NCBI RefSeq assembly: GCF_000022025.1
Contig: NC_011881.1
Coordinates: forward strand, 62,001 to 126,000
DNA from: Pseudarthrobacter chlorophenolicus A6
GTDB taxonomy: Bacteria; Actinomycetota; Actinomycetes; Actinomycetales; Micrococcaceae
Reading direction: 5' to 3'
Length of the DNA: 64,000 nucleotides
In this document: piece after piece, positions 8,411-62,108 of the stretch
Layout: each line of letters opens with the position of its first letter
How positions within the stretch are numbered: the first letter of the stretch is position 1
The notes under the pieces: generated by a model
Databases searched by the model: none
What the model saw: the letters and a program-made list of their open reading frames with translations, nothing else
Told to the model about the DNA's origin: nothing
Translations under genes and position numbers: made by a program

Positions 8411-10176
8411 GCGCACCGAACCGCAAAGGAATGGGCCTCGAAGATGCCCTGCTGGTCTGGCTGGCCATCGCTGCCATCGTCGTCTTCGGCGGCGGGACCT
8501 ACGCCGCCGTCCACCTCGGGTCCTGGATGGCGGGCATCACCAAGCCCCCAGCTCACCCCATCGACCTCATAGCCGGCCTCATCAAAGGCCGGATTCCCTG
8601 GCCCACCCAATCCACCATCGTCGTCTGCGTCATGGCCGCCCTGATCCTCGCGCTTGCCATTGTCGTGCTCGTGGCCTGGCGGAAAGGGGCATCCAAGCGT
8701 GCCCGTGTCGACAAGGCGGCCCGCTACCTGGGCCGCGGCAAAGCCCTCGACGCGTTCTCCGAAAAAGGGGCGCAGGCCAAAGCCGACCGTCTCGGGATCA
8801 ACGACAACCCAGGGATCGTCGTCGGCAAGGTCGTCTCCACCGGACAGAAGTTCGTCCAGTCATGGGAAGACCTCAGCCTCGACATCTGGGGACCCCGAAC
8901 GGGTAAGTCCACCTCCCGGGTGATGCCCGCAATCCTGGACGCGCCCGGCGCCGTTGTCTCGACGTCGAACAAGCGTGACGTCGTGGACGGCACCCGCGGC
9001 GTCCGCGAGAACGCGGCCCCGGTTTGGGTCTTCGATCCGCAGAAGATCGCCCAGGAAGAACCGGACTGGTGGTGGAACCCCCTCTCCTACGTCACGGACG
9101 AAGAGAAGGCCTACAAACTCACCCAACACTTCGCTGCCGGCTCACGGGTGCCCGGCTCAAAACCGGACGCCTACTTCGACCCCAAAGCCGAGGACATCCT
9201 TTCCTCGTACTTCCTCGCCGCAGCCCTCGGTGGCCTGCCGATCACCCAGGTCTACCTGTGGGTGACAGAGCAGGTCAGCCAGGAACCCATCGAAATCCTC
9301 CGGGAGCACGACTACGAGCTGCAGTACAAAGGCTTGGAGTCCACGCTAAAGCTGGCCGACAAACAGCGCGACGGTATCTTCGGTACCGCCGAAAAGATGA
9401 TCCAGTGCCTCAAGAGCCGGAACACGCTCCGCTGGGTCGCCCCGACAGGCGGCGCAAGCGTGGCAGGGGATGCGCGACGGCAATTCAACCCGCACGCCTT
9501 CGCCGCCTCCCAGGAAACGATCTACATCCTTTCCAAGGAAGGGGCAGGATCGGCCGCCCCGCTCACCACAGCGCTGACCGTGGCAATCGCCGAGGCAATG
9601 GAGGAACGGGCCGAGCGCAGCGGCGGGCGCCTGCCCAAACCGGCACTGTTCGCCTTGGACGAGCTGGCCAACGTTGTCAGGTGGGCTGGCCTGCCGGACC
9701 AATTCAGCCACTACGGCTCAAAAGGACTGATCGTCATGGGCATCCTGCAGTCCTGGTCCCAGGGCGTCGAGCTCTGGGGAGAGGCGAACATGCGGAAGAT
9801 CTGGTCGGCCGCGAACGTCAAAGTCTACGGCGGCGGCGTCGCCGAGGAAGGGTTCCTCCGCGCACTCTCCGACCTGATCGGAGACTACAGCTACATCAAT
9901 ATCTCCGTCTCCTCCGGGAAGTCCGGATCCAGCCGCTCCCGGCAGGAGGCCAAGGAACGGATCTTCGACGTCTCCAACCTGGCCGAGCTGGACCGCGGCC
10001 GCGCCGTGATCCTCGCCTCCGGCGCACCAGCCACCCTGGTCAGGACCATGCCCTGGTACACCGGCCCCCACAAAGAAGCCGTCGAAGCATCAATCAAAAA
10101 GTACAGCCCCCAGCCGGAGGAAGAACCGGTACCGGTGGCAGCGGCACCGGCCGCCAATCCCTGGGTCACCGGGTAG
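8407..10176 (+). CDS. TraG/VirD4-type coupling protein
   Basis: A GTG-started 589-residue protein (start set by GAAGGAGG and by GTGA overlap with the preceding stop). Two N-terminal transmembrane helices (about 14-45 and 70-98) precede a cytoplasmic ATPase with Walker A GPRTGKST (162-169) and Walker B ALDELANV (Asp418-Glu419). This is the TraG/VirD4 type IV coupling protein plan with a TraM-recognition-like C-terminal domain. It recruits the relaxosome to the channel. No relaxase gene is visible in the window. The C-terminus is Pro/Ala/Glu-rich. Confidence 0.9.
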   Translation: MSAPNRKGMGLEDALLVWLAIAAIVVFGGGTYAAVHLGSWMAGITKPPAHPIDLIAGLIKGRIPWPTQSTIVVCVMAALILALAIVVLVAWRKGASKRARVDKAARYLGRGKALDAFSEKGAQAKADRLGINDNPGIVVGKVVSTGQKFVQSWEDLSLDIWGPRTGKSTSRVMPAILDAPGAVVSTSNKRDVVDGTRGVRENAAPVWVFDPQKIAQEEPDWWWNPLSYVTDEEKAYKLTQHFAAGSRVPGSKPDAYFDPKAEDILSSYFLAAALGGLPITQVYLWVTEQVSQEPIEILREHDYELQYKGLESTLKLADKQRDGIFGTAEKMIQCLKSRNTLRWVAPTGGASVAGDARRQFNPHAFAASQETIYILSKEGAGSAAPLTTALTVAIAEAMEERAERSGGRLPKPALFALDELANVVRWAGLPDQFSHYGSKGLIVMGILQSWSQGVELWGEANMRKIWSAANVKVYGGGVAEEGFLRALSDLIGDYSYINISVSSGKSGSSRSRQEAKERIFDVSNLAELDRGRAVILASGAPATLVRTMPWYTGPHKEAVEASIKKYSPQPEEEPVPVAAAPAANPWVTG

Positions 10177-10187
10177 GGGAGCAGGGC

Positions 10188-10628
10188 ATGACGATCGACA
10201 TCGGCCGGTTCGGCGAAGCACCCGGCCCGGACGTAGAGGCACCCGGGGATAACCCCGGCCAGGAGCAGAAGCCGCCGGAACTGGTTTACGGTTCAGCCGA
10301 GGAATTCCTTCACGAGCAACTGCTGCCCACCTACGTCCGCGACGTCGACGGACGCGCCGCCAAATGGTGCCTCGAGTGGTACTTCCACCCCGAAGCGGTC
10401 TCCCGGGTGGAAGCTCTCTGGCGGTCCTGGGAACACCTCCGGCTCGACGGGGCAACCGGCATTAGCGTCTGGTTCAGAGACCACGCGGACCATCACATGG
10501 GTGTGCTATTGGACCCACGGGGACCGTTCTATAAATGCGACATGCAAAAACACCGCGACCCCGAACACCTCGAACCCAAAAAGGCGCCCGCAGGCTGGTT
10601 CCCGGACGTCCGGACTATTCCTGCCTGA
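10188..10628 (+). CDS. DUF4913-family protein, end of conjugation operon
   Basis: A 146-residue soluble protein starting 11 bp after the coupling gene behind AGGGGAGCAGG. The conserved-looking core (VRDVDGRAAKWCLEWYFHPEA, then HADHHMGVLLDPRGPF) matches the small DUF4913 family that commonly trails TraG-like genes in actinobacterial plasmids. Function is unknown. It is the last gene before the terminator at 10674-10704. Confidence 0.75.
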   Translation: MTIDIGRFGEAPGPDVEAPGDNPGQEQKPPELVYGSAEEFLHEQLLPTYVRDVDGRAAKWCLEWYFHPEAVSRVEALWRSWEHLRLDGATGISVWFRDHADHHMGVLLDPRGPFYKCDMQKHRDPEHLEPKKAPAGWFPDVRTIPA

Positions 10629-10673
10629 AAGGCATCAGCTGCACGGCTATTTGTAGCCGCTACCAAAACAATC

Positions 10674-10704
10674 AGGGCCGGAATCCGTAATGGATTCCGG
10701 CCCT
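10674..10704. terminator. Bidirectional intrinsic terminator between the transfer operon and lsr2
   Basis: Perfect 13-bp stem (10674-10686 with 10692-10704) and 5-nt loop GTAAT. On the plus strand it is followed by TGATTCTTGTTTT; on the minus strand by GATTGTTTTGG. It lies between convergent genes and can serve both. Confidence 0.85.
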
Positions 10705-10723
10705 TGATTCTTGTTTTCCGGCT

Positions 10724-11053
10724 TTAGTGCGCGGCTTCGTACTTCTCTACAACGTCCGCCTGGATACGGCCGCGCGTGTTGACCTGGATGCCATTCTCGG
10801 CCGCCCACATCCGCACCGCCTTGGCATCAGGGCCTCCATGCGAGGACTTGGTACGGACCGCGGGGCGACCACGACCGCCGGCCACTTTGCGCCCAGCTTC
10901 GGTAAAGCGAGCCAGAGCGTCACGTAGTTCATTAGCGTGCCCCTCGTTGAGATCAATTTCATATTCACTGCCGTCGAGGGCGAAAGATAGGGTTTCGGTA
11001 GCTTTCGAACCGTCAATATCATCTTCCAGCAGCACGACTGTCTTTTTTGCCAT
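10724..11053 (-). CDS. lsr2: Lsr2-family nucleoid-associated protein
   Basis: A 109-residue protein with the Lsr2 layout: an N-terminal oligomerisation domain starting MAKKTVVLLEDDIDGS, a basic Gly/Arg hinge (GGRGRPAVR), and a C-terminal DNA-binding domain with MWAAENGIQVNTRGRIQ, whose RGR is the minor-groove AT-hook-like element. Lsr2 silences AT-rich, horizontally acquired DNA in Actinobacteria. A plasmid copy beside a transfer operon may lower the cost of carrying foreign DNA. It converges on the conjugation operon. Confidence 0.93.
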   Translation of the reverse strand: MAKKTVVLLEDDIDGSKATETLSFALDGSEYEIDLNEGHANELRDALARFTEAGRKVAGGRGRPAVRTKSSHGGPDAKAVRMWAAENGIQVNTRGRIQADVVEKYEAAH

Positions 11054-11660
11054 GAATTAAGGCTATCAGTCTGCTGACTATCGCGATTCCTCACTTATCC
11101 AGACCGCCGCTCGGAATGCGAGCAGTCCACAGTTGGGGGTCAATCCGGGTTATCCACGGCTGGAATCGGGAGCCCTTGGGCAGCTCCCTTAGCAGCAGTA
11201 GCGGTGGAATAACCCATCAGGATTGTCCCCGGCTGTGGGCAGCGAAACCTTCTATCCAAAGGCCCATGGACAATTGCGCAACAACTTGTTGCGCACAATC
11301 GCTGAGGCCCCCGGCAACATCAGAGCGGCCGGCTGTCAGGTTTGAATCTAAGACTAGGGCTAGGGGACTGTAAGAAACCGCCCTCACGACCCTATTCTGA
11401 CGCTCCTCTGGAAGCTGCCTGACGTCAGGTTGGGGTGTACCTAACCGGACCGTCTCCCTGCCCGTAAGCCAGGCTCTCTCTGCACGGGCGCCAGTAGCAC
11501 GAGCCGTGGTGGCAGGGGCATCTCAAGGGAGTGAGTCCGGAAACCCGAGTTCAGAAACAAAGTTGGACACAACCTGCAAAGGTTGTATCTCCTGACGCCA
11601 ACGAGTCCGCAGTCACGAGTGTTGATCCAGCGTTGCCCTTGACCACGTACACTTCAGACT
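11054..11660. other. 607-bp non-coding region, possible origin or control region
   Basis: No convincing gene. It holds the lsr2 promoter region, two sequences one base away from the DnaA box TTATCCACA (CTTATCCAG near 11094 and TTATCCACG near 11150), a perfect palindrome at 11275-11295 and a 12-bp palindrome CCTGACGTCAGG at 11418-11429, then the leader of the AraC gene. An origin or transfer-control role is only a suggestion; no replication initiator gene is visible. Confidence 0.4.
11275..11295. promoter_or_regulatory. Perfect 21-bp palindrome TGCGCAACAA-C-TTGTTGCGCA
   Basis: Two perfect 10-bp arms around a single C, in non-coding DNA between lsr2 and the AraC gene. There is no T-run, so it is not an obvious terminator. 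It looks like a dimeric protein-binding site or an origin or transfer element. Confidence 0.6.
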
Positions 11661-12623
11661 ATGACGCAGCCCATACCAGGTGTGCGCCCGAACGGCTTGA
11701 CCCGGTTCTCGACGGCGGGGTTGCCCGAGGCACGGCGGATCGCAATGTGGGAAGAGCACAATGCGCGCGCCCTGGTCGGGCTGCAGGCCCGAACACTGGC
11801 GGGTGGCGGGTTGAAAGCTACCGAGCTGAATTTGAACCTGCCCCGGCTGCAGGTGGCCCAGGTTTGGGGCAATCCGCACGTTGTAGAACGGTCAGCGCGG
11901 GAAATTGCTGCGCATCCAGCTGATGCCGTGGTCGCGTACTTCACGTTGGAGGGCGAGGGCTTCTTCTATCACCAGGACGGCTGCGAAATCCTCAGGCCGG
12001 GCGAGGCAATCCTCTATGACGCGGACCAGCCGTTCATGCGCGGATTTTCGCACGGATTGAAGGAGCTGGCCCTGAAGATTCCCCGCAGTACCCTGAGGGA
12101 ACTCACGCGGCAGTCTGGGCTGAAACGCCCCAAGGTTTTTGGCTTCCATGGCCCCCAGGCGGAGCGTATATACGCCGGCGCCCTGGCCTCTTCCCTCGGT
12201 GCCGCGTTGTCCGGACGGGCCGGGGACTGGGACGAACTAGAAAACACGGCGCTGGAACTGCTCGCCGTCACCCTCGGCGCTCCCGCAGGACCGGCCGGAC
12301 ATCTGGCCGCTGCGCAGGCATTTATCTCTCTTCAATCCGCAGATCCGCAGCTGTCGGCCGGGCGAATTGCTGCAGCCGTCGGCATTTCCGAACGCCAGCT
12401 CTCACGCATCTTCGCGGAGGGTGGCACCAGCGTACCGCGAGCTATTCTCAATGCGAGGCTAGAGGCGGCCCGGCAGCAGTTACTCTCCCCGGCAGCCGCC
12501 CGGATTCCTCTGAGCGCCCTGGCGCTGCAGCAGGGGTTTGCCTCGCAGGCGCATTTTTCTCGCGTCTATAAGGAGAAATTCGGCCTCTCCCCGCTGCAGG
12601 ACCGCCGGTCCGCCAGCGACTAA
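11661..12623 (+). CDS. AraC-family transcriptional regulator of the adjacent catabolic genes
   Basis: A 320-residue regulator: an N-terminal AraC-type ligand-binding domain (about 20-190, with a cupin-like FTLEGEGFFYHQDG strand pair) and a C-terminal double helix-turn-helix (about 215-315). The first HTH is IAAAVGISERQLSRIF; the second region carries LALQQGFASQAHFSRVYKEK and ends GLSP. The organisation resembles the NphR-type activators of phenol and nitrophenol genes. It lies 223 bp upstream of, and on the same strand as, the hydroxylase-reductase-dioxygenase genes it probably activates. Corynebacterium rolHMD instead uses a TetR repressor. Confidence 0.85.
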   Translation: MTQPIPGVRPNGLTRFSTAGLPEARRIAMWEEHNARALVGLQARTLAGGGLKATELNLNLPRLQVAQVWGNPHVVERSAREIAAHPADAVVAYFTLEGEGFFYHQDGCEILRPGEAILYDADQPFMRGFSHGLKELALKIPRSTLRELTRQSGLKRPKVFGFHGPQAERIYAGALASSLGAALSGRAGDWDELENTALELLAVTLGAPAGPAGHLAAAQAFISLQSADPQLSAGRIAAAVGISERQLSRIFAEGGTSVPRAILNARLEAARQQLLSPAAARIPLSALALQQGFASQAHFSRVYKEKFGLSPLQDRRSASD

Positions 12624-49922: not shown

Positions 49923-50270
49923 CTACCTGCCCAAATTAGCTACGGCACGCAGGTAAGCGTCAAGCCCGTGCCGCCGTCCGACGGCAACGCCTTCCACCGT
50001 TAGCCCCGCAACAGCGCCGTCGCCCAAAAGTCGGTAGACGAGGCGAAATCGCCACTCACTGCGATTATCAAATTCAGGATCGGGATCAAAGTAGACCTTA
50101 TAGCAGTCACTGAGGTCGCCTGTCGCGGACGACTCGTCCAGTGAAAGACCGGATATCCGGCCGTCCCGGATGTCCATGAGAAGTTGGATGGCCATTCGCT
50201 GGCAGTTGTCCGGGAGGAGCTTGATATCGCTCCTAAAACCTTCAAGTACGGTTATTTTCTCATATGTCAT
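49923..50270 (-). CDS. RelE/ParE-like toxin
   Basis: A 115-residue protein following a Phd-like antitoxin with no gap. It has RelE/ParE-superfamily features: an N-terminal basic-helix region, then a CYKVYFDPD strand, EWRFRLVYRLLGDGAVAGLTVEGVAVGRR strands and a helical C-terminus. Toxins of this fold are ribosome-dependent RNases or gyrase inhibitors. The catalytic set cannot be assigned by eye. Probable plasmid-stability module. Confidence 0.75.
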   Translation of the reverse strand: MTYEKITVLEGFRSDIKLLPDNCQRMAIQLLMDIRDGRISGLSLDESSATGDLSDCYKVYFDPDPEFDNRSEWRFRLVYRLLGDGAVAGLTVEGVAVGRRHGLDAYLRAVANLGR

Positions 50271-50549
50271 CTACTCGGCCGAGTCTAGCCCCAGTTCCGA
50301 GACCAAATCTGCAAGTGGCATCGAACGGTTGGTCGCGATGCGATGGGTAACCTCGGCCCTCATGCGAATCTCGTCAATTTGAGGCAATAGTTGTTCATAC
50401 ATTTCAATGGGGATAAGCGCGGCCTCTGGCTTACGGTGTCCACCGATCAACGCTGGCTCGGCCAACACTCCCTCTTCCCGGAAGGCCCGAAGGTGCCCCG
50501 GGAGCCCTGACCTAGCCTGGGTAACAGTTTCGACGCTGGCGATTGTCAT
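50271..50549 (-). CDS. Phd/YefM-like antitoxin
   Basis: A 92-residue protein: an N-terminal Phd-type segment (ARSGLPGHLRAFREEGVLAEP, then GHRKPEAALIPIEMYEQLL) and an acidic C-terminal helix likely to cover the toxin. Its stop directly adjoins the toxin ATG (TAGATG). It should autorepress its own promoter. Confidence 0.78.
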   Translation of the reverse strand: MTIASVETVTQARSGLPGHLRAFREEGVLAEPALIGGHRKPEAALIPIEMYEQLLPQIDEIRMRAEVTHRIATNRSMPLADLVSELGLDSAE

Positions 50550-51089: not shown

Positions 51090-51367
51090 AGTAGGCGGTT
51101 CTCATTTCTTTGCTTGCCGGTTCTTTCCTGACCGAGGGAGCAACGTCCACGGTCTTGGAGTTGTTCCAGCTCAGAGGCCTGCCCCCCCTCTCCTGCGCCA
51201 GGATCAACCGGCGGTTGCTGACTTCCGCTTATGCCGCTGAACATCAGGAGGATGAGGCCATGGCGCTCACCAGGTCCCGGACAGCACTGTGAGCGTAAGG
51301 GGATGTCTTGACGTTCTTCTTGCGTACCCTGACACTCGTTCTCAGGCATCGAGGGTTGGAGGCCGCC

Positions 51368-51934
51368 GTGAATGGTCAGCGAATCGGCTACGTTCGGGTG
51401 AGCACACTCGACCAGAACGAAAAGCGCCAGCTTGAAGGTCAGGCTCTGGACCGGGTATTCACCGACAAGGCCTCCGGCCGGGACACAGCACGACCGCAGC
51501 TCGCGGAGCTGTTGCGGTTCGCCCGCGAGGGCGACACGGTGATTGTGCACAGCATGGACCGGCTCGCCCGTAACCTGGATGACCTCCGCGCCCTTGTCCA
51601 GGGCCTCACCCGACGCGGGGTGCGGGTGAAGTTCCTCAAAGAGCAGCTCGTATTTACGGGTGAGGACTCCCCCATGGCCAACCTCATGCTCTCCGTCATG
51701 GGTGCTTTCGCTGAATTCGAGCGGTCCCTCATTAGGGAACGCCAGCGCGAGGGCATCACTCTGGCCCAGCAGCGTGGCGCCTACAAGGGACGGAAGAAGA
51801 CCCTGACCCCGGAACGGGCGGCCGAGCTGGTCCAGCGAGCCGGCAGCGGGATCCCCAAAGTCATCCTCGCCCGTGACTACGGAATCAGCAGGGAAACCGT
51901 CTACCAATACCTCCGGCAAGCCAGACTGGAGTAG
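51368..51934 (+). CDS. Serine resolvase/invertase
   Basis: A 188-residue small serine recombinase (Tn3-resolvase type). The catalytic Ser lies in GYVRVSTLDQNEKRQ; SMDRLARNLDDLRALV and FAEFERSLIRERQREG are family blocks; the C-terminal HTH is GIPKVILARDYGISRETVYQYL. GTG 51368 matches family starts; an earlier in-frame start at 51308 would add 20 atypical residues. Two relics of the same kind lie at 16885-17634. It may resolve plasmid multimers or be left from a transposon; no transposase is seen. Confidence 0.9.
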   Translation: MNGQRIGYVRVSTLDQNEKRQLEGQALDRVFTDKASGRDTARPQLAELLRFAREGDTVIVHSMDRLARNLDDLRALVQGLTRRGVRVKFLKEQLVFTGEDSPMANLMLSVMGAFAEFERSLIRERQREGITLAQQRGAYKGRKKTLTPERAAELVQRAGSGIPKVILARDYGISRETVYQYLRQARLE

Positions 51935-52337
51935 ACGCCGCCTCCCAGGGGAAATCTTGCCAGAGTCGGCAAGCAAAGAATCCGGGTCCCGCAACTGTTC
52001 ACAGCCAACCTCAAGGTTCACCGGGCAGGGTTGTTCTTGGAACTTCGGCCAACCGCTATTTGGTCGAAGTTTCGCCAATTTCGCGGGTTTCCCGGCCAGC
52101 CACCGGACGTTTCATCTCTGTGCTGGCATCCGAGGCGCCACCCTGTGTGACCGGACCCGGCAGCCCCCACCAGCTCTGCCTCAGGCCAAGGCCACGGGTT
52201 GCACCCTGCTCGCCAGCCCGCCTCCTCCAGCTTATGGAGCGTTCGTGATCGGCGTTTCGATCCAACCGCCTCCCTGCGACCCCGCACCCATTGCCTTGTG
52301 GCGATCCTGCCGCCACGCCAAGGTTCGCGATTCTTTA
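51935..52337. other. Intergenic region before the candidate defence operon
   Basis: About 400 bp without a supported gene. It contains a 6-bp-arm hairpin CTTGCC-AGAGTC-GGCAAG near 51956-51973 after the resolvase. No recognisable resolution site was identified. Confidence 0.4.
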
Positions 52338-52369
52338 CCTAAGATTAGGTTGTGTATCATGAACCTAAC
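52338..52369 (+). promoter_or_regulatory. Operator-promoter of the XRE-ImmA/nuclease operon
   Basis: Three related half-sites: ACCTAA (52338-52343), TTAGGTT (52346-52352) and AACCTAA (52363-52369). The outer pair forms a perfect inverted repeat with a 10-bp spacer holding a -10-like TATCAT (52356-52361). SD AAAGGGTGAG and the GTG at 52383 follow. A regulator bound here would block the promoter; the XRE protein of the operon is the obvious candidate. Confidence 0.6.
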
Positions 52370-52382
52370 GAAAGGGTGAGAC

Positions 52383-53006
52383 GTGCTATTCGACTACGCC
52401 AAAGAGAGTGTTGCTCGTCACAAGTTGGCTGACCTTGGGCTGACGGTGGAGCAAATTCATGACACGTTGCTGTACGGAGCTGCGGAAAAGTCCACGTACA
52501 CAGAACTCGATGCTCCGGGAGCTGGAGAATACGCTCGATGGTCGCGGCACGTTCGCCGCATGAGCGAAACTCTCGCGCAGCAAGGCTGGGAGAGAATCAA
52601 TCCGGATCATCAACCTACGATCGTTCACCCAAGCTTCGAGCACGCCCTTGTTATCACAGGGGGAAACAGTGCAACTGGATTGGCTTATGCAACGCCCACG
52701 AACAAGAACCCCAAGGGCCGCAGCATCCGCAATGCCGTGATGGGTAACAAGGAATCGGTCTTGTTCCGACCCCAGGATGTCCAGCCTGTGTTGGGCGGTC
52801 TCCGCCAGACTTGGGTCCTTCTCACATATGTCGCCGACGATGGGCGGATCCGAGCTGAGGTCAGCCTCCCGGGTGACATGGTCGGAGAGCAAATCACACA
52901 CTGGATCCACCGCATCCTTCTCCCCGAAATCGATCCGAACGCTGGTCTGGCCCTGGGAAGTGAGGAAGAACCACCAAGCTACGACTTCGAAGTTCTTCGG
53001 AAATGA
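52383..53006 (+). CDS. First gene of the XRE-ImmA/nuclease operon, unknown function
   Basis: A 207-residue soluble protein, GTG start with good SD. N-terminal helical segment (YAKESVARHKLADLGLTVEQIHDTLLYG), middle beta-rich part (FEHALVITGGNSATGLAYATPTN) and C-terminal DYDFEV-like acidic end. I do not recognise a domain. Its stop overlaps the XRE-ImmA start (ATGA), so it is a constant part of this operon. It may be the sensor or inhibitor partner of the peptidase. Confidence 0.7.
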   Translation: MLFDYAKESVARHKLADLGLTVEQIHDTLLYGAAEKSTYTELDAPGAGEYARWSRHVRRMSETLAQQGWERINPDHQPTIVHPSFEHALVITGGNSATGLAYATPTNKNPKGRSIRNAVMGNKESVLFRPQDVQPVLGGLRQTWVLLTYVADDGRIRAEVSLPGDMVGEQITHWIHRILLPEIDPNAGLALGSEEEPPSYDFEVLRK

Positions 53007-54121
53007 GCCTCGAAAACAGGCCGCCGTTTGTTTCCGCTCGCCTTACTCACGCACGCAGGCGGCGGGGGATGACAATCACAGCGCTTAGTACTGCAAGTGG
53101 AGTCAGCACTAAGAGTATTTCCGACTTCGAGAACGGAAAAAAGGAGCCTGCCCCCGAGACGCTACGGCGATTAGGTCATGTCTTAGGCGTGCCACTCGAG
53201 CATTTCGCGCGCCCTGGCATCGAAGAAGTCCCCGTAGCTTCCGTCAGCTTCCGCGCGCCAAGCAAGATGACTGCCAGGAATAGAGACATGGCTCTTACAG
53301 TCTCTGGCCATGCGATAGAGCTCCGAGCGTGGATTGACTCTCACTACGATACTCCCCCCGCAGATGTCCCAACCTTGCATAAATTCACTGGGGCACCCGA
53401 TGCGTCCGCTGCTGCGGAGATCCTTCGAGCCAAGTGGGGATTAGGACAGGCTCCGCTAGGAAATATGATTCACCTCCTGGAGCTCCATGGTGTCGCCGTG
53501 TTTTCAGCCAAGGCGGACAAGGGAGAAATGGACGCCTTTTCATTCCGGGATTCGGGCACTCCTTACGTACTTCTTAGTACAAAGAAGTCCGCCGAACGGG
53601 GAAGGTTTGACGCCGCTCACGAATTGGGCCACTTAGTTCTCCACGCGGAATCAGTTAAACCATCCGGCGTGGAGGCTGAACGCGAGGCGGACAGTTTCGC
53701 TTCGGCTTTCCTAATGCCGGAGGCGGATGTCCGGGCGCAAGTTCGGCTTAATCCTTCGCTAGATGAGATTCTGCGTAAGAAAAAACGATGGAACGTTTCG
53801 GCAATGGCATTGGCCTACCGCCTCCACGACCTTGGCTTGCTCAGCGACTGGCTCTACCACACGACCTGCGTCAACCTGTCTCGGATGGGATATCGGTCTG
53901 GAGAACCTAACGGCATAAATCGAGAATCGTCTCGACTGCTAACTCAGGTAGTGAACGACCTATGGAACAGACCGGGTGGCTTCGAACAGCTGTGCAACGA
54001 CCTAGCCGTCAGTGCCGAGGATGTAAATGATCTCATCTTCAAGCTGGCTCCGGTCGGGCTGAGGGGGTCGGCACAATCTTCCCCTCCTCTCCGGCCAAAC
54101 CTCAGGGTAGTAGCGGGGTAA
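53003..54121 (+). CDS. XRE HTH - ImmA/IrrE metallopeptidase fusion
   Basis: A 372-residue two-domain protein. Residues about 10-68 form an XRE-type HTH (ARRRRGMTITALSTASGVSTKSISDFENG). Residues about 130-300 form an ImmA/IrrE Zn-peptidase with HELGH (206-210) in RFDAAHELGHLVLH and a downstream Glu in EREADSFASAFLMP as third ligand. Such proteins cleave repressors, as ImmA does in ICEBs1 and IrrE in Deinococcus; with a built-in HTH they often act as repressor and sensor. It is encoded upstream of a nuclease-like gene and probably controls it through the operator at 52338-52369. Confidence 0.88.
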   Translation: MSLENRPPFVSARLTHARRRRGMTITALSTASGVSTKSISDFENGKKEPAPETLRRLGHVLGVPLEHFARPGIEEVPVASVSFRAPSKMTARNRDMALTVSGHAIELRAWIDSHYDTPPADVPTLHKFTGAPDASAAAEILRAKWGLGQAPLGNMIHLLELHGVAVFSAKADKGEMDAFSFRDSGTPYVLLSTKKSAERGRFDAAHELGHLVLHAESVKPSGVEAEREADSFASAFLMPEADVRAQVRLNPSLDEILRKKKRWNVSAMALAYRLHDLGLLSDWLYHTTCVNLSRMGYRSGEPNGINRESSRLLTQVVNDLWNRPGGFEQLCNDLAVSAEDVNDLIFKLAPVGLRGSAQSSPPLRPNLRVVAG

Positions 54122-54157
54122 AAATTTCTAGTCGCTGTGGGATTGAAGGGTTTGAGC

Positions 54158-55459
54158 ATGCAGGGTGATGACATCAAGAGGCTTGGTCGCGCCGTAGTCT
54201 TTGTACATCAACACGACCAGAAGATTGCGGATCACCATGTCAGGGCTGAAATAGAGGTTCTCCTGCTCACGGGGAAAGCTATGGACTTCGCGGCCCGACT
54301 CAAGGGCCATCAGGCGATCTTCCCACTGACGCACGAACTAGTTCAACAATATGCGAAGTTCGCAGGCCTAGGTTTCCTAGAGCTCTCAAATACCGTACTT
54401 CCTGCACTAAAGCGTGCCGGTCTCATCGACTACTCTCTCTCCGACCAGGGGCGGATAGTCGGGTTAGATGAATATATTGGGGTTTCAGCGACCGTAACTG
54501 AGCAGACGGTCCAGCTTCTGAACGTCTTGATGCCGCAGCGCTCCGACCTGGCGTTTTTGCATTCTGTCGAAGTGGCTGCCATCGCACCGCTTGCAGAGTC
54601 GGACCATCTGCAGGAGGTCGTTAGCCGTGGGTTCGGCGAGGCGGAGGCGGCCAGTGCCCTGACCCTAGCTAAGGCCGTGGGGCTAAATCTCACAGTCCCT
54701 TCGGCAGAGCTGAATGAGCGCGTCGTTTATAGCCCTTACGTCTGGGGCACCCGCCAGCTTTCCCTTGCGAAGTTCCTGCGCGAGCTGCCCCCAAACGAGA
54801 GGGACGCCCTTCTCGGAATGAGCGAGCAGGTCCTTGCCACTCCTGGCATTCACATGTCAAAGCTAGTAGCCACGCCGGCAGTTATTCGAAGTGCGCGAAA
54901 CGCTGGACTCATCCAGGCTGCGAACGTTCAATCCTCCACCGGCAATGGTTCGACCTACGTCTTCTCCCCCTTGCTGGAAGCCGAAGACAATTTGTGCACC
55001 ACCACAGAAGCATTCCATCTCAGGAAGCTCTTCGTCGCACACATTCTTTTCGGGCATGAACGTGCTATAGCAGGTGGTGGAATCATCCACAGCCCCACGG
55101 TGCTTGTAAACGCGCTCCTAAGGCGGGGCGTAGTGGGACCGGCGACGAATATCGGCACCGATTACTACCTTCTGGAAGCCGCCGGAGTTGTTGCAGTCGA
55201 ACCAGACGCAGGCAGGGCTTACCTCCGCCTAGTTAAGCCTGAAATCGCTGAAGCGGGGCTGGATTGGATCCGACGGATCACAGACTCCGCGGGAACAGGT
55301 GAGCTGACGTTGAATCAGCGTCCCGCCAGCTTTCAAAAGCCGGAAGATATGCGGACTGAGGAAACGACAGGCGCTGCTAATGAATTGATGGTTGCGTCAA
55401 TAAACGAGCTTCGGAAGGAGATGCAGCGTGCAGCACGCCGCGACGATCCCTGGTCTTGA
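54158..55459 (+). CDS. Unknown protein of the XRE-ImmA/nuclease operon
   Basis: About 433 residues from ATG 54158 (SD GAAGGG; a GTG at 54137 is possible). It appears mainly helical with several winged-helix-like stretches: ALKRAGLIDYSLSDQGRIVG near residues 90-110, VIRSARNAGLIQAANVQ near 250 and VNALLRRGVVGPATNIG near 315. No Walker or nuclease motifs. The 3' end overlaps the nuclease-like gene by 32 bp, so the two products probably form a complex. It may be a DNA- or RNA-recognition subunit. Confidence 0.75.
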   Translation: MQGDDIKRLGRAVVFVHQHDQKIADHHVRAEIEVLLLTGKAMDFAARLKGHQAIFPLTHELVQQYAKFAGLGFLELSNTVLPALKRAGLIDYSLSDQGRIVGLDEYIGVSATVTEQTVQLLNVLMPQRSDLAFLHSVEVAAIAPLAESDHLQEVVSRGFGEAEAASALTLAKAVGLNLTVPSAELNERVVYSPYVWGTRQLSLAKFLRELPPNERDALLGMSEQVLATPGIHMSKLVATPAVIRSARNAGLIQAANVQSSTGNGSTYVFSPLLEAEDNLCTTTEAFHLRKLFVAHILFGHERAIAGGGIIHSPTVLVNALLRRGVVGPATNIGTDYYLLEAAGVVAVEPDAGRAYLRLVKPEIAEAGLDWIRRITDSAGTGELTLNQRPASFQKPEDMRTEETTGAANELMVASINELRKEMQRAARRDDPWS

Positions 55460-56648
55460 TCCCGGGGCAAAAGCAGAAGTTCGGGTCGCTCAGGCTTGGT
55501 TCTGGGACGGCTACTTTGTACGCAGGGGTGTGGACCTGACGCACAAATTCGGTAGCGATTCGGCAACAATAACGGACCTTGACGTACTTGCGGTCTCTCT
55601 GGACGCTGCCCTTCGTGCTCATAAACATATCGGCGAAGTAAAAACCGGAAAGTCCAACAACACTCCTCGGCCGTTGGACCGTGCGCTTTGGCTACGAGGT
55701 GTCCGCGAGCTCATCGGAGCGGAAAGCGGCGAGATCACAACTGCTTTCCGAACTTCAGTTGGCGTAAGGGATGCCTGTCGGCGCCTCGGAGTTTCGGTCC
55801 AGCACATGGACGACCTCGCCGCACGTGAACAGCGGCTAGGGATAGCTGACCTTGCTGACATCGGGTCTAATGGCGAGACCGTCGCGCTTTTGAAAAAGGA
55901 CGTACTCGCTTTCGCTAAGCAGGAGCCTACTCTCGAACGTGCTTACTGGTTCTTAACTTCAGAAGTTTGGTTCCTTGGGCCCTTTGACGCTCTGAAACGC
56001 ACCTTGGGGCTCATCCGTGAGCTCGGTAAGAGCTGGCCTGACGAGTCACATGCTCAGGAAGCCAGGGCCGCTAGATGGTTTTTTGCTGAAGGCATCGCCC
56101 TGATCACCCTTAACCTTGCTGTCATCGCGGGACAAGCTAACACGATGGACAGCGTGGGGTTCCGTGCCATTGCTGCGGATAGGCTCTCCTCGGGTGACGT
56201 GCCCTCCTATGCCGTCCGGAAACTTTCTGAACGATTTGATGAGTATCTCGGCAAGATTCTAAATTCCTTAGATGCACCGGCAGATATCAGGGCAACCGCG
56301 TCCGGGGCTTTCCTACCTACAGAACCTGGATATGCCGAACCGTTAGTCGAGTTGATACAACGGCTCTCTTCGGAAGCGTCTCTGACTGCTCTCCTGCCCA
56401 GGCAGTTGGACGTGATTCTCTTCGAAAGGCTCGTTCGTAGGCGTGAACTGAACCCGGAAATTAGTCGTCGGCTAGGAATCGGTCGCGATACCGAACGACT
56501 GATGAGGCTAATCGGGGCTTTTCTTCGCGGGCAATTCGCCCTACCAAGTGTCGTGGAGAAAGTACTCACATCGCCCCTGTCCGAGGGCCATCTCACTGGT
56601 GAGTCTAAGGGGAGCCAAATTGCGCTCTTTGACGAAGTCGACTTATAG
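55428..56648 (+). CDS. Putative PD-(D/E)XK nuclease of the XRE-ImmA operon
   Basis: A 406-residue protein, GTG start with SD GGAAGGAG inside the previous gene. Residues 14-75 fit a PD-(D/E)XK nuclease core: Glu17 in a first helix (AKAEVRVAQAWFWDGYFVRRG), Asp50/Asp52 in ITDLDVLAV, and Glu70-x-Lys72 in GEVKTGK, with a hydrophobic strand before each. The remaining 300 residues are helical and unrecognised. It resembles Mrr- or effector-type nucleases joined to a sensing domain. With the XRE-ImmA controller it forms a plausible anti-phage or anti-plasmid effector. Nuclease assignment is motif-based inference. Confidence 0.72.
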   Translation: MQHAATIPGLDPGAKAEVRVAQAWFWDGYFVRRGVDLTHKFGSDSATITDLDVLAVSLDAALRAHKHIGEVKTGKSNNTPRPLDRALWLRGVRELIGAESGEITTAFRTSVGVRDACRRLGVSVQHMDDLAAREQRLGIADLADIGSNGETVALLKKDVLAFAKQEPTLERAYWFLTSEVWFLGPFDALKRTLGLIRELGKSWPDESHAQEARAARWFFAEGIALITLNLAVIAGQANTMDSVGFRAIAADRLSSGDVPSYAVRKLSERFDEYLGKILNSLDAPADIRATASGAFLPTEPGYAEPLVELIQRLSSEASLTALLPRQLDVILFERLVRRRELNPEISRRLGIGRDTERLMRLIGAFLRGQFALPSVVEKVLTSPLSEGHLTGESKGSQIALFDEVDL

Positions 56649-56798
56649 GTTCACAAGGGGGGCGAGCGCTGGTTGCAGCTGCACCGAGACGGGCGCTTCC
56701 GCAAGGCCATTGTGAAAGAAGAACGTAGCCTGGCCGCTCCCTCTTTTTGGTCTGGGCTGCAGGGGAGGGCCTCGTCCACTCCCCCAGATTGACGAAAG

Positions 56799-56817
56799 GT
56801 CCATTATCGGCGCTTGA
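56799..56817. repeat. 19-bp direct repeat, copy 1
   Basis: GTCCATTATCGGCGCTTGA. It matches 58398-58416 at 18 of 19 positions in the same orientation, 1,599 bp apart. The pair frames the nucleotidyltransferase and pRiA4b ORF-3-like genes. These may be ends left by an insertion sequence or cassette. Confidence 0.65.
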
Positions 56818-56852
56818 GAATGGCCGGGGGAGAGGCTTGAAAAGGAGCCGTT

Positions 56853-57539
56853 TCACCGGCCGATGAGGGTCCGGTCTGCCGGCGGCGGGACAGCGTCCGG
56901 GTCCGCATCGATGCTGTAGATGGTCTCGGACCGATTGGTGAGCCTGGTGATGTCCTCGGTTGTGATGTTGATGAACGCCGATCGGTTCTTCAGGTGCTGG
57001 ACGAGTTCGGTATATGGCCATAGCAGCCGGTCCACATACGTACTGAAGGACCGCCCGCTGGCCCTGGCGTAGTCCGCCACGAGCTTGGGGTCGGTGATCC
57101 TTCTGCCGTACGTGAGCTCGATGTCGACGTCGCCCAGCGGGTCGATCTGAGGGTCGAGATAACTGCCGAAGACCCTAAGCGCGTCGACAAACAGGGGCTT
57201 ACCTTGGTCGGCGTTGTAGGCGTGTGCACGCTTCAGCAGTTCAGAAACCAGCCGGTCGGCGGTCTTTCGGCTGATCGGTTTCCCGAAGCTTGCCATCGCC
57301 AGAGCGTTGCCCTGAATGGTGGTATCCCACCAGACGTCCCCGGCGGCATCGGTCTCGACCGTCTCCATGTATCCGGCAGCTTCCAGTTCGGCCAGCACCG
57401 TCCCGGGTTCATGCCCGGTGCCGTCGAGGAGGTCTGCCACACCCACGACGGTCATTTCCCTGCCCCTGAACCGGCGGACGATCGCACGGGCCAACTCCGC
57501 CGGCAGCCCGGCGATGACATCCGATTTCGCTACCCTCAC
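56853..57539 (-). CDS. Nucleotidyltransferase-domain protein with N-terminal winged helix
   Basis: A 228-residue protein. The N-terminal half looks like a winged helix (VADLLDGTGHEPGTVLAELEAAGYME). The C-terminal half has the minimal nucleotidyltransferase motif GSYLDPQIDPLGDVDIEL (Gly125-Ser126, Asp137 and Asp139). MNT-type enzymes of this kind are often antitoxins of HEPN toxins, but no HEPN gene is adjacent. GTG start behind GGTGAG. Could be a stand-alone AMP-transferase regulating a partner elsewhere. Confidence 0.7.
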   Translation of the reverse strand: MRVAKSDVIAGLPAELARAIVRRFRGREMTVVGVADLLDGTGHEPGTVLAELEAAGYMETVETDAAGDVWWDTTIQGNALAMASFGKPISRKTADRLVSELLKRAHAYNADQGKPLFVDALRVFGSYLDPQIDPLGDVDIELTYGRRITDPKLVADYARASGRSFSTYVDRLLWPYTELVQHLKNRSAFINITTEDITRLTNRSETIYSIDADPDAVPPPADRTLIGR

Positions 57540-58326: not shown

Positions 58327-58397
58327 TCTTGCAGGCCCCACAACTCGCGTCCGAGACCCTGCCACTCCCCTGCCATCGATCGTCAGGCTTACAGAAC

Positions 58398-58416
58398 GTC
58401 CATTATCGGCGTTTGA
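58398..58416. repeat. 19-bp direct repeat, copy 2
   Basis: GTCCATTATCGGCGTTTGA; differs from 56799-56817 by one base. It lies in the 265 bp between the pRiA4b ORF-3-like gene and the sugar kinase gene, which otherwise hold no gene I can support. Confidence 0.65.
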
Positions 58417-58591
58417 AATCCTCGATGAGGGAAGGGCCCGAGATCGCCCTGAGGGCGCCACCGGCCTCGCCCTTAGCGTCCACGAAAACCAGCGAAGGGC
58501 CTGCGTCGGTCTGGCTCTTCGGTAGCTGCGACGGCGGCTGTCGCCGTCGCCCGTGGGTCCGATTCCATCGGCTTTCGACTTTGCGGGTTGG

Positions 58592-59596
58592 TCAATGCAC
58601 GCTCCGGAAATCCGCCGGGGCGGCAAATAGGTCGCTGAGCTCTCGCGCCCAAGGTGGATCGGCACCTGGCCTGGAGCAGGTGATGGATGCTGCGCCGTTC
58701 GCATAGTCAAGCAGGTTCTGAAGTGCTTGGGGTGAGAGATCCTTCAATTTCTCCCGGGCGCCTGCGCCGAGGAGGTTTCTCGTGCCGAGCCAGGAAATTA
58801 ATGCGGCCATGAAGGAATCGCCTGCGCCGACGGTGTCAGCGACTTCGATTTCCCGGGCCGGCATCTGTACCATCGTGCGGCCGTTTGTGATCACTGGACC
58901 GCCTTCGCCGCGGGTGACTGCCACTATGGCCGGTCCCAGCTTGAGCCATGCGTGCGCGGTCTGGTCTGGCGTCCTGTCCGGGTACAGCCATTCCAGGTCC
59001 TCGTTGCTGGCTTTGACGATATCGCTCGCCGCTACAAACCGCTCGATGTCCCGGCGGGTGCTGTGAACATCTCCGCTGATCGCGGGCCGGCAGTTCGGGT
59101 CGTAGCTGATCGTGGCACGTCCACGGGCAGCTTGCAGCAGCGTGTAGACAGTGTCGCGCCCGGGAGGCAAGACGGTGGCGATCGAACCTGCATGGACGTG
59201 GCGGGAGCTTTCGACTGCTGACAGCGCTGGAAGAGAGGTCCCGTTAAGATCCCAGGTGATGGCGATGGAATAGCGGGCGGCTCCAGCGTGGTCAATGTTT
59301 GCGGTAGCAACGCTTGTCGGGGAGTGTCCGCCGACGAGGGCGGCGACCCCGTTGGCCGTCAGATGTTTTTCGATCATCCCCCCGTACTGGTCTTGGCCGT
59401 AGTGGGTGATCAAACTGGTCGTCATGCCGAGGCGCGCACAGCCAATGGCAACGTTTAGCGGGCTTCCGCCCGGACGTATGGCGGTCGAGGTTCCCGTTTT
59501 GTGGGGGTGAGTGATGACGTCCACGAGAGATTCACCGATGACCGTCACTCGGGGGTAAGCGTCTGGGCTGGCGGTTGGCATAGCTTTGGAGGTCAC
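58592..59596 (-). CDS. PfkB-family sugar kinase
   Basis: A 334-residue ribokinase/fructokinase-type kinase. Signature 1 is RPGGSPLNVAIGCARLG near residue 42; signature 2 is ADTVGAGDSFMAALISWLG with catalytic base Asp260. It phosphorylates a sugar or sugar acid with ATP. Its ATG overlaps the stop of the unknown gene upstream (ATGA), which follows a ribose-type ABC transporter. Substrate could be fructose, ribose or 2-keto-3-deoxygluconate; the sequence does not decide. Confidence 0.88.
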   Translation of the reverse strand: MTSKAMPTASPDAYPRVTVIGESLVDVITHPHKTGTSTAIRPGGSPLNVAIGCARLGMTTSLITHYGQDQYGGMIEKHLTANGVAALVGGHSPTSVATANIDHAGAARYSIAITWDLNGTSLPALSAVESSRHVHAGSIATVLPPGRDTVYTLLQAARGRATISYDPNCRPAISGDVHSTRRDIERFVAASDIVKASNEDLEWLYPDRTPDQTAHAWLKLGPAIVAVTRGEGGPVITNGRTMVQMPAREIEVADTVGAGDSFMAALISWLGTRNLLGAGAREKLKDLSPQALQNLLDYANGAASITCSRPGADPPWARELSDLFAAPADFRSVH

Positions 59597-60942
59597 GCGC
59601 GGTGGGCCGTGGGTGCAGTCTCCAGTTGGTCTGCCACGTGCTGCCAGCCGTCGCTGAACATACCGTATGCCGTTTTAATTTGGACACCGACGGGAAGTTC
59701 GGGGCATTCGTTTTCGCCGTTGGTTCCCCAGTTGACCCAGCCGGACTGGCGGCGCTGGACGATCTGGAAGGCACCGGACGGTTCAGATGTCCACCACACC
59801 ATGGTTCTGTCCAGGTCTGAATGGAATTCGGCGGTTTTTGAGGCCGGCCCGGCGAAGATGGTTTCGTGCGGCACAGCCGAGACATCGACGGGGGCATCCG
59901 CTATCGTCCAACGCCGTTCAGGCAGGTCGGCGAGCACGTGCGAGGTTGCCCTGACACGGGCGAGGCGTTCGCGGATCTCCTCGTTGTCCAAGGCGCCTTC
60001 CCAGCTGCAGAACAGGCGCCAGTACAGGTCCCAGTGGGCCGCTTCGATGTTGCCGGTGAGTTGGCGGCGGAATTCCAGGAACTTCGCAGTGTTGGACGTT
60101 GAGTTCGCGATGGTTTCCTCGACCATTTGTGCGAGTTCAGCGGCGTAGGGATCGCCGGAGCGGTACCGTGTGCCGTCGTATGCTTCGAAGCGGTTGAAGA
60201 CCACATCGCCTTGGCCGGCCTCGAATTCATCGCCGACGGTGATCTTGTTGGTTATGGAGCGTCCGTTGATGACGGTCTGGAAGTCGTCCACCCGGTAGCT
60301 GCGGGTGAAGTAGGGCGTGCCGTGGGTGAACTGCCAGTCGATGGAAAACGTCTTGCCCTTGAGTTCCTCGAGCAGGCCGTCGGGGATTGTCCCGTGCATC
60401 CGGTAGTGATGCAGGATGGGGCCTTCTTCGATGGTTTCGATGTGGACGGTGGTGTGTTCGGGCGGGTTGATGAGGCCGTTCTCGGGGGTGAAGAAGGGGC
60501 CGTAGAACCCGCCGATGGCGTTGTTGCCCGAGGGCAGCAGGTCGATGCCTTCTTTCAGCGTTGCGAAATGACGCAGTCCCCATTTTGAGGCGCCGGTACC
60601 CTCGGCAGTTCCCGAGCACATTTCGAGGTCGAAGTATCCGGTGTCCAAGCGGACGAAACCGTCGGCTTCGACAGGTTCGCGCTTGGTGATCCCGTCAACG
60701 TGACCGGTGACAGGTGCGGTCAGCGTGAGCTCGAGGCTGCCGTCAAAGGACAGGACGGTGACGAAGGTGGTTTTACCTGGTTCGGGTTGGGCGTTCAGCC
60801 GCTGGCAGGTAACGGTGTCTCCGGAACTGGTAGTTGCAGTCCAAAGGCTCTCGGTCAATACGCCGTCGACGGTGAAGGTCACCGGTTCGTTGGTGCGGCG
60901 GCCGGGAAGGGCGTCCTTGACGGCGATGGTGGGCAATGCCAC
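59593..60942 (-). CDS. Unknown protein of the sugar operon
   Basis: A 449-residue protein without signal peptide or membrane segments. It appears beta-rich, with blocks such as GLRHFATLKEGIDLLP, NAIGGFYGPFFTPENGLINPP and ILHHYRMHGTIPDG. These look like a sugar-binding or lyase/hydrolase-type beta-sandwich, but I cannot name a family. Placed between ABC transporter genes and a PfkB kinase with ATGA coupling to the kinase, it probably acts on the imported sugar, perhaps as a cytoplasmic glycosidase, lyase or isomerase. Confidence 0.65.
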   Translation of the reverse strand: MALPTIAVKDALPGRRTNEPVTFTVDGVLTESLWTATTSSGDTVTCQRLNAQPEPGKTTFVTVLSFDGSLELTLTAPVTGHVDGITKREPVEADGFVRLDTGYFDLEMCSGTAEGTGASKWGLRHFATLKEGIDLLPSGNNAIGGFYGPFFTPENGLINPPEHTTVHIETIEEGPILHHYRMHGTIPDGLLEELKGKTFSIDWQFTHGTPYFTRSYRVDDFQTVINGRSITNKITVGDEFEAGQGDVVFNRFEAYDGTRYRSGDPYAAELAQMVEETIANSTSNTAKFLEFRRQLTGNIEAAHWDLYWRLFCSWEGALDNEEIRERLARVRATSHVLADLPERRWTIADAPVDVSAVPHETIFAGPASKTAEFHSDLDRTMVWWTSEPSGAFQIVQRRQSGWVNWGTNGENECPELPVGVQIKTAYGMFSDGWQHVADQLETAPTAHRA

Positions 60943-61061
60943 GGGCTTTTCCTCTCAGGTTTTTTGGCGTGGGGCTGCATTCCGGCCGCTTGGGAAAGCG
61001 GGCCGGAAATGTCCCCCCGGGGGCAGGCAGGATGCTGCTGCCTGGTGCGTTGGGTGTGCGC

Positions 61062-62108
61062 TTATGCAGCTTTCTGGGCTGCGATGGCCTTGGACCACGG
61101 CAGGCGGAGCGTACGCTGCTTCAGGCTGTCGATAGCCACCGCGAGGATGATGACGAGGCCCTTGATCAGCAGCTGGGTGAAGAACTGGACGTTCATCAGG
61201 ATCAGTCCGGTGCTCAGGACACCGAGAATGATGGAACCTATGAGGGTTCCGTAGATCCGGCCCCGGCCGCCAACAAGACTCGTGCCGCCCAGAACGACCG
61301 CTGCGATCGCATCCAGTTCATAGCCGCCGCCCGCTGTCGGCTGGGCAGAGACGACCCGGGCGGAGAAGATGACGCCGGCGAGTCCGGCGCAGACACCCGC
61401 GATGACGTAGACGGAAGTGAGGACTCGCTTGACGTTGATTCCTGCCAGCCTGGCTGCTTCAGCGTTGCCGCCGACGGCGTAAACGTGTCGGCCGTAGCGG
61501 GTGCGCTCAAGGACGAACCATGCCGCGACGTAGACGATGACCATGATCACCACGGGCACGGGGATGCCCGCAATGTACCCGTTGCCGATGTCCCGGAAAT
61601 TTAGGGTGTTGGAGACAATGGGCTGCCCGTCGGTCATCGTGTAGGCCAGACCGCGCAGGAAAGTCATGGTGCCGAGGGTCACGATAAAGGCGGCCAACGC
61701 CAGGTAGGAGCTGAGCAGGCCGTTGATCAGTCCCGCGAGGGCCCCTGTCAGGACTCCGACCAGGATCGCGACGGGTGCGGGAAGTCCCGCGATGCCTGTC
61801 ATGACCGATGCGACCCCCGCGACGGCCAGAATAGAGCCCACGGAGAGGTCGATTCCGGCTGCGAGAATGACGAACGTCATTCCGGCGGCGAGAATCGCGT
61901 TGATGGAAATCGACCGGGCGATGTTAAGCAGGTTGTTGACGCTCGCGAAGTTCGGGGCGATGACGACCATCAACGCTACGAGGGCGATCAGGACAACGAG
62001 GATGCCAACGCGGTCCCACCAGTAGGCGAAGTCGAAGCCGCGGGCAGGCATGGCTACGGCCTCTGGCCGGAGGTCAGCGTCCTGTGGGTTGAGAGCCTGG
62101 TTAGTCAT
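61062..62108 (-). CDS. Ribose-type ABC transporter permease (RbsC family)
   Basis: A 348-residue permease from ATG 62108 (SD CGGAG; an upstream ATG at 62147 is less likely). It has about nine hydrophobic segments and the RbsC-type pattern NAILAAGMTFVILAAGIDLSVGSILA, then GRNVYAVGG-like GRHVYAVGGNAEAARLAGI. It is the membrane channel of a CUT2-class sugar importer. It overlaps the ATPase gene by 8 bp and is followed by 119 bp before the unknown gene. Confidence 0.92.
   Translation of the reverse strand: MTNQALNPQDADLRPEAVAMPARGFDFAYWWDRVGILVVLIALVALMVVIAPNFASVNNLLNIARSISINAILAAGMTFVILAAGIDLSVGSILAVAGVASVMTGIAGLPAPVAILVGVLTGALAGLINGLLSSYLALAAFIVTLGTMTFLRGLAYTMTDGQPIVSNTLNFRDIGNGYIAGIPVPVVIMVIVYVAAWFVLERTRYGRHVYAVGGNAEAARLAGINVKRVLTSVYVIAGVCAGLAGVIFSARVVSAQPTAGGGYELDAIAAVVLGGTSLVGGRGRIYGTLIGSIILGVLSTGLILMNVQFFTQLLIKGLVIILAVAIDSLKQRTLRLPWSKAIAAQKAA

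Follow-up and report, generated by a model that had tools for sequence, protein, structure and literature searches.

A RosmerTA toxin-antitoxin pair beside a candidate two-gene restriction-like module in Pseudarthrobacter chlorophenolicus A6

Closest Described Systems

RosmerTA is described as a diverse family of phage-defence toxin-antitoxin systems in which RmrA, an antitoxin with an ImmA domain, is found with varied toxins; the same source includes the RosmerTA of Gordonia phage Kita (PMC10440598). In RipAB, a pneumococcal member, the toxin is reported to target the sliding clamp (PMC12795458), and narrow activity is reported for homologues of Streptococcus thermophilus (PMC12322248). Two repressor-protease switches, CapH+CapP and PprI-DdrO, also combine helix-turn-helix (HTH) and ImmA-like peptidase parts. 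CapH+CapP is described as controlling an adjoining immune operon (PMC13373217), and in both switches the peptidase is said to be activated by single-stranded DNA (PMC13373217, PMC10904395). These systems, together with the Mrr-type (type IV) restriction enzymes, are the closest counterparts of four consecutive plus-strand genes at positions 52338 to 56648 of a 64,000-nucleotide stretch of Pseudarthrobacter chlorophenolicus A6 (RefSeq assembly GCF_000022025.1, contig NC_011881.1, positions 62,001 to 126,000). This whole stretch is called the window, and coordinates below are positions in it.

The original prediction took the four genes for an undescribed defence operon. Its reading frames are all present, with genes 1 and 2 coupled by an ATGA at 53003-53006, a 36-nt gap between genes 2 and 3, and a 32-nt overlap (55428-55459) between genes 3 and 4. 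The set is probably best read as two neighbours, a RosmerTA pair (genes 1 and 2) beside a separate, unnamed pair that is a candidate split, type IV-like restriction module (genes 3 and 4). Half of the set is thus already known, and the claim of novelty falls for genes 1 and 2; the other half is, credibly, an unnamed candidate defence module. What is isolated in this way is a nuclease-like protein with a partner, occurring across Actinobacteria and in one Chloroflexi metagenome-assembled genome (MAG).

Genes 1 and 2

By their matches to family models, genes 1 and 2 are RosmerTA over nearly their full length. Gene 1 (52383..53006, plus strand, 207 aa, GTG start), first put down as unknown, matches the PADLOC RmrT model PDLC03935 over residues 10-207 (E 1.4e-47), while Pfam, NCBIfam and PHROG searches with it give no match. 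Gene 2 (53003..54121, plus strand, 372 aa) matches the RmrA model PDLC03949 over residues 9-370 (E 2.2e-133), the best of 14 RmrA models matched. The predicted fusion of an XRE-type HTH to an ImmA/M78 peptidase is borne out by Pfam (HTH_3, E 5.2e-12; Peptidase_M78, E 1.3e-22), and HELGH at residues 206-210 leaves the peptidase motif intact. By family, a toxin is presumed in gene 1 and the matching antitoxin and repressor in gene 2.

Among 396 genomes of the order, 15 carry RmrT of the window type, and A6 is one of these. Neighbourhoods were taken from 13 of the 14 other carriers, a weak match with internal stops being left out; the stretches are about 18 kb each, except for three of 10 to 14 kb that end at contig ends. 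RmrA adjoins RmrT in all 13, and tblastn detects gene 3 or gene 4 in none of these stretches. The closest RosmerTA relative found is on plasmid pRHL2 of Rhodococcus jostii, where RmrT (48% identical) and RmrA (69%) adjoin each other and genes 3 and 4 are both absent within 5 kb. The locus resembles other RosmerTA loci in having a toxin model and an HTH-M78 antitoxin side by side, here coupled by ATGA, and differs from the 13 other RmrT loci in the unrelated gene pair that follows.

RmrA also matches the PADLOC models capP (E 3.4e-21) and capH (E 1e-6). It shares HTH and M78-type peptidase parts with CapH+CapP and PprI-DdrO, but here they form one fused chain beside a toxin gene, RmrT. A CapH+CapP controller was considered and rejected, given that HTH and peptidase are not separate genes and that PADLOC has no model matched by gene 3 or gene 4. 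There is no gene of a cyclic oligonucleotide-based antiphage signalling system (CBASS) in the four-gene set.

Genes 3 and 4 as a Conserved Pair

Gene 3 (54158..55459, plus strand) encodes 433 aa, or 440 aa from an alternative in-frame GTG at 54137, and gene 4 (55428..56648, plus strand, GTG start) encodes 406 aa. Homologue searches gave at least 72 proteins for gene 4, at least 288 for gene 3 and at least 279 for a profile of a distant gene 4 branch; no Pfam domain is found among the matches listed for any of the three. Loci were mostly located through gene 3. In all 20 other loci where both genes are visible (16 of 16, plus 4 of 4 on further plasmids) gene 3 is followed by gene 4, and the adjacency persists down to about 20% identity. 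Locus L056, which ends at a contig end, is not counted, and L047 is a duplicate of L018; since L002 and L003 (99% over 8.2 kb) and L166 and L167 (99%) are near-identical, the independent loci number about 18. Among 16 junctions measured, with lengths that rest on manually chosen start codons, 15 are overlaps of 4 to 35 nt and one is a 1-nt gap.

The pair is found in 4 of 396 genomes of the phylum, 3 of 394 of the class and 1 of 295 of the family, A6 itself being one in each count. Carriers include Nocardioides, Actinoplanes, Kineosporia, Arthrobacter, Streptomyces, Rhodococcus, Paenarthrobacter and Rubrobacter, as well as one Acidimicrobiia MAG and the Chloroflexi MAG; in several genera the pair is on plasmids. 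The flanks available on either side measure between a few hundred bases and 10 kb, depending on the locus. Within them tblastn finds RmrT at none of the 20 loci and RmrA at two, the almost identical L002 and L003, where it is a different protein (31% identity) lying divergently to genes 3 and 4. In the closest clade, with five visible loci, RmrA adjoins the pair in the window and in L002/L003 but not in L004 or L005. A single four-gene unit is rejected, because in the stretches compared the context fails both ways: RmrT loci lack genes 3 and 4, and gene 3/4 loci lack RmrT. The conserved co-occurrence of all four genes on which the operon had been staked is not seen.

Neither the two proteins of the window nor 40 diverse members have a significant match in PADLOC (PADLOC-DB 2.0.0) or Pfam, and no described module of this make-up is named in the titles and abstract openings of the papers listed for it in an open-licence library. 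Genes 3 and 4 are put forward as a candidate defence or restriction-like system in their own right; this is the part of the predicted novelty that survives.

A side observation concerns the RmrA of L002 (Nocardioides soli), at 7897-9857 of that locus on the minus strand (PADLOC E 6e-105; that of L003 is almost identical). It overlaps an upstream gene for a 262-aa protein, and the couple stands between the Gabija-flanked gene 3/4 pair and a large gene. The 262-aa protein has no match in PADLOC or Pfam and is possibly an uncatalogued RosmerTA toxin.

The Nuclease-Like Protein and Its Partner

An Mrr-like PD-(D/E)XK domain in the N-terminal part of gene 4 is well supported by conserved residues and by profile comparison. 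The catalytic pattern E...D...(E/D)xK is present. In a 50-row alignment D50, D52, E70 and K72 never vary, with E17 at least 90% conserved; in 20 rows whose identity falls as low as 18%, the positions without any variation include T49, D50, D52, K72, W88, G91 and R114, and E17 and E70 are each at least 90% conserved. The nuclease originally predicted from Glu17, Asp52, Glu70 and Lys72 thus gains in strength.

In a profile comparison with 33 Mrr_cat domains, the nuclease domain aligns in the catalytic register over 113 columns with a probability of 92%, an E-value of 5.8e-7 (for a single comparison) and a score of 43.7. The domain assignment is well supported because of how this match stands against its controls: none of 100 column shuffles scores above 22.0, the YraN positive control reaches 40.9, and the C-terminal part of gene 4 has 14.4. 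Gene 3, used as a negative control, scores 26.6, which is above a shuffle maximum (22.0) that was made for gene 4. Against 19 YraN sequences gene 4 gives a marginal 28.3, with 40 shuffles at or below 24.7. Like Mrr-type enzymes, then, gene 4 has an N-terminal domain that aligns to Mrr_cat. Unlike them it stays below the Pfam threshold and has an extra C-terminal part without an Mrr signal, and its partner is a separate protein without a clear Mrr_N signal.

Sub-cut-off Pfam matches of gene 4 to HTH_28 and HTH_29 were disregarded. Several gene 4 homologues (P0002, P0025, P0058 and P0062) are called 'DNA-binding response regulator' by NCBI; gene 4 shows no response-regulator domain, and the name is probably a misannotation.

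Gene 3, put down at first as a helical partner, has no significant family in Pfam, PADLOC, NCBIfam or PHROG searches. Several faint signals are suggestive of a winged-helix-like protein. The two PDB matches of a wide gene 3 profile, Rv0081 and 2obp (E 0.26 and 0.67), are both annotated as DNA-binding regulators. Against 24 MarR domains residues 285-390 score 26.9, over only 21 columns (40 shuffles at or below 18.5), residues 25-130 score 21.3 (shuffles at or below 19.1) and residues 190-300 score 17.3 (at or below 14.3). A DNA-binding role for gene 3 is inferred. Gene 3 was also considered as a split Mrr_N: its three parts score 17.0, 14.3 and 8.9 against 8 Mrr_N domains, with shuffle maxima of 15.7, 16.4 and 17.8, in a test of little power whose MarR positive control reaches only 13.5. 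No clear signal emerges from it. A sub-cut-off Pfam UVR match of gene 3 was disregarded.

Defence Genes around Gene 3/4 Loci

Known defence genes lie near several gene 3/4 loci, in keeping with the defence-like context first proposed. For example, Gabija GajA and GajB are near the pair in Nocardioides, and in Kineosporia an LmuA-like gene is directly downstream with LmuB behind it. AbiEii is found in L006, IetA in L017, a type II/IIG methyltransferase with a helicase in L007, and a CAP12/Pycsar-type TIR protein in L054. Proteins of Gabija, Lamassu, AbiE and Ietas thus occur near the pair, but genes 3 and 4 themselves match none of the PADLOC models of these systems. Across the loci seen, the pair has no recurrent methyltransferase companion.

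Overall, 109 neighbour proteins from 14 loci (115 listed proteins minus 7, plus one) hit 94 PADLOC models with E-values of 1e-15 or lower; the models are redundant, and behind matches such as PD-T4-6, QatA and mad6 there may simply be common kinases or ATPases. The control, 103 proteins (all retained) from 12 arbitrarily placed 14-kb stretches of the same phylum, matches two models at that threshold; it is mostly chromosomal, whereas several gene 3/4 loci are plasmids. Some tested neighbours in L006, L009, L016 and other loci have no match. Counted by locus, a defence-named match is present in 6 of 14 (L002, L005, L006, L007, L017 and L054) and in 0, 1 or 2 of the 12 control stretches, according to how TAP-like and mad2 are counted. 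These surroundings are supportive of a defence role, not proof of it.

Mobile settings are also seen. In L004 (Actinoplanes couchii, 4133-12515) a TnsB-like gene is followed by a TniQ-like gene and then, about 150 bp further on, by the pair, which a Tn7-like transposon may carry as cargo. In L016 (Rhodococcus plasmid pRZP5, 4393-16792) it stands between conjugation genes and mobF, the MobF relaxase gene, and looks like a passenger of the transfer region.

Proposed Function and Its Alternatives

The RosmerTA half may be regulated through a perfect inverted repeat at 52345..52368, TTAGGTT-10 nt-AACCTAA with 7-nt arms, 5' of gene 1. This is presumed to be an operator bound by the HTH of RmrA. The sequence occurs exactly nowhere else in the window; allowing up to 3 mismatches gives 3 matches, where 0.60 are expected by chance. 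Of the operator-covered promoter proposed earlier, the repeat is confirmed and the promoter is not, a sigma-70 consensus scan finding none under it; over 52200-56900 the scan gives a single site, on the minus strand, and shuffles give 1.5.

In the proposed mechanism RmrA would neutralise RmrT and, through the repeat, repress the promoter. Infection or DNA damage would lift this control, leaving RmrT free to stop the cell. In the adjoining module gene 3 would recognise a DNA feature and recruit or license gene 4, whose Mrr-like domain would cut incoming phage or plasmid DNA. Because no methyltransferase recurs with the pair, self and non-self would be told apart by modification, structure or regulation. 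If the pair does restrict phages or plasmids, it would represent a new split, Mrr-like immune system.

Several observations pull the other way. Gene 4 of the window has no Pfam match to Mrr_cat, falling below the curated threshold, and the 40 diverse gene 3/4 proteins yield a single weak one (E 0.022). A PDB sequence search with the nuclease domain gives no match; the only PDB matches of the gene 4 profile are histone H2B chains (E 0.011 and 0.19), which lie outside the nuclease domain and were judged to be chance. The enrichment of defence-named matches by locus is weak, with a one-sided p of 0.013, 0.06 or 0.155 for 0, 1 or 2 control loci.

A non-defence role for genes 3 and 4 is unlikely. 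The pair would then serve plasmids and islands in DNA processing or maintenance, for example in repair, recombination or plasmid competition, and its presence on plasmids of several genera, its place on pRZP5 and its position behind TnsB/TniQ genes in Actinoplanes would suit such a role. The rare and patchy distribution of the pair and the defence genes near several of its loci speak against it.

Less likely still is one integrated four-gene system, the original prediction amended for RosmerTA. RmrA would be repressor and protease for the whole set, and once infection inactivated it, RmrT and the gene 3/4 nuclease would both be set free. The four genes do share a strand, with no terminator-like site in the gap between genes 2 and 3; a different RmrA lies beside the pair in Nocardioides; and CapH+CapP offers a precedent for control of an adjoining operon. 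Against this stand the 13 RmrT loci without genes 3 and 4, the two nearly identical loci that alone among 20 have RmrA nearby, and the repeat, whose sole exact copy is upstream of gene 1. Control of genes 3 and 4 by RmrA would be compatible with the layout but is not called for by the comparison of loci, and the self-cleavage first suggested for the fused chain of gene 2 is hypothetical. As a shared switch, RmrA would on infection lose its antitoxin and repressor function and free toxin and nuclease together, giving layered immunity in which the cell cuts first and arrests if cutting fails. The prospects of this scheme are equally slim; were it true, RosmerTA-type antitoxins would be recurrent controllers of adjoining restriction modules, and the adjacency makes such control by an HTH-ImmA antitoxin a testable question.

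It is very improbable that the genes are a prophage remnant or a lysogeny module of a phage: RmrA does match the phage transcriptional-regulator family PHROG 2439 (E 1.4e-78) and a RosmerTA is published from phage Kita, but no PHROG is matched by gene 1, 3 or 4, a search of 50,697 phage records with genes 1 and 3 (not run for gene 4) came back empty, and the gene 3 and gene 4 profiles find no confirmed relative in viral contigs.

Setting of the Locus

The arrangement of RosmerTA beside a separate gene 3/4 module likely lies on a plasmid, the four genes being an acquired insert. The window is on contig 2 of 3, and stretches on both sides of the four genes resemble plasmids of the Arthrobacter group. 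For example, 58389-62000 (3.6 kb) is 99.9% identical to a plasmid segment of Paenarthrobacter ureafaciens with carbohydrate kinase and ribose transporter genes. No aligned stretch spanning the four genes is apparent among the 15 of 30 records listed. In 1-kb windows the guanine-plus-cytosine fraction is 0.54-0.58 across the four genes; it is 0.61-0.63 starting at 57 kb, and most values at 46-49 kb are 0.62-0.69; low values (0.56-0.60) also occur at 49.5-51.5 kb.

The resolvase gene noted earlier is confirmed just upstream of the set, at 51308-51934 (Pfam E 9.6e-37). The neighbouring toxin-antitoxin pair of the original prediction fares less well. Two small genes adjoin each other at 49923-50549 on the minus strand; the upstream one has a sub-cut-off Phd/YefM antitoxin match (E 9.3e-4), the second, the supposed toxin, has no match in a Pfam search, and the couple is plausible as a putative pair. 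Behind gene 4, at 56853-57539 on the minus strand, is a 228-aa frame without a Pfam match, whose GSYLDP...GDVDIEL stretch resembles a nucleotidyltransferase.

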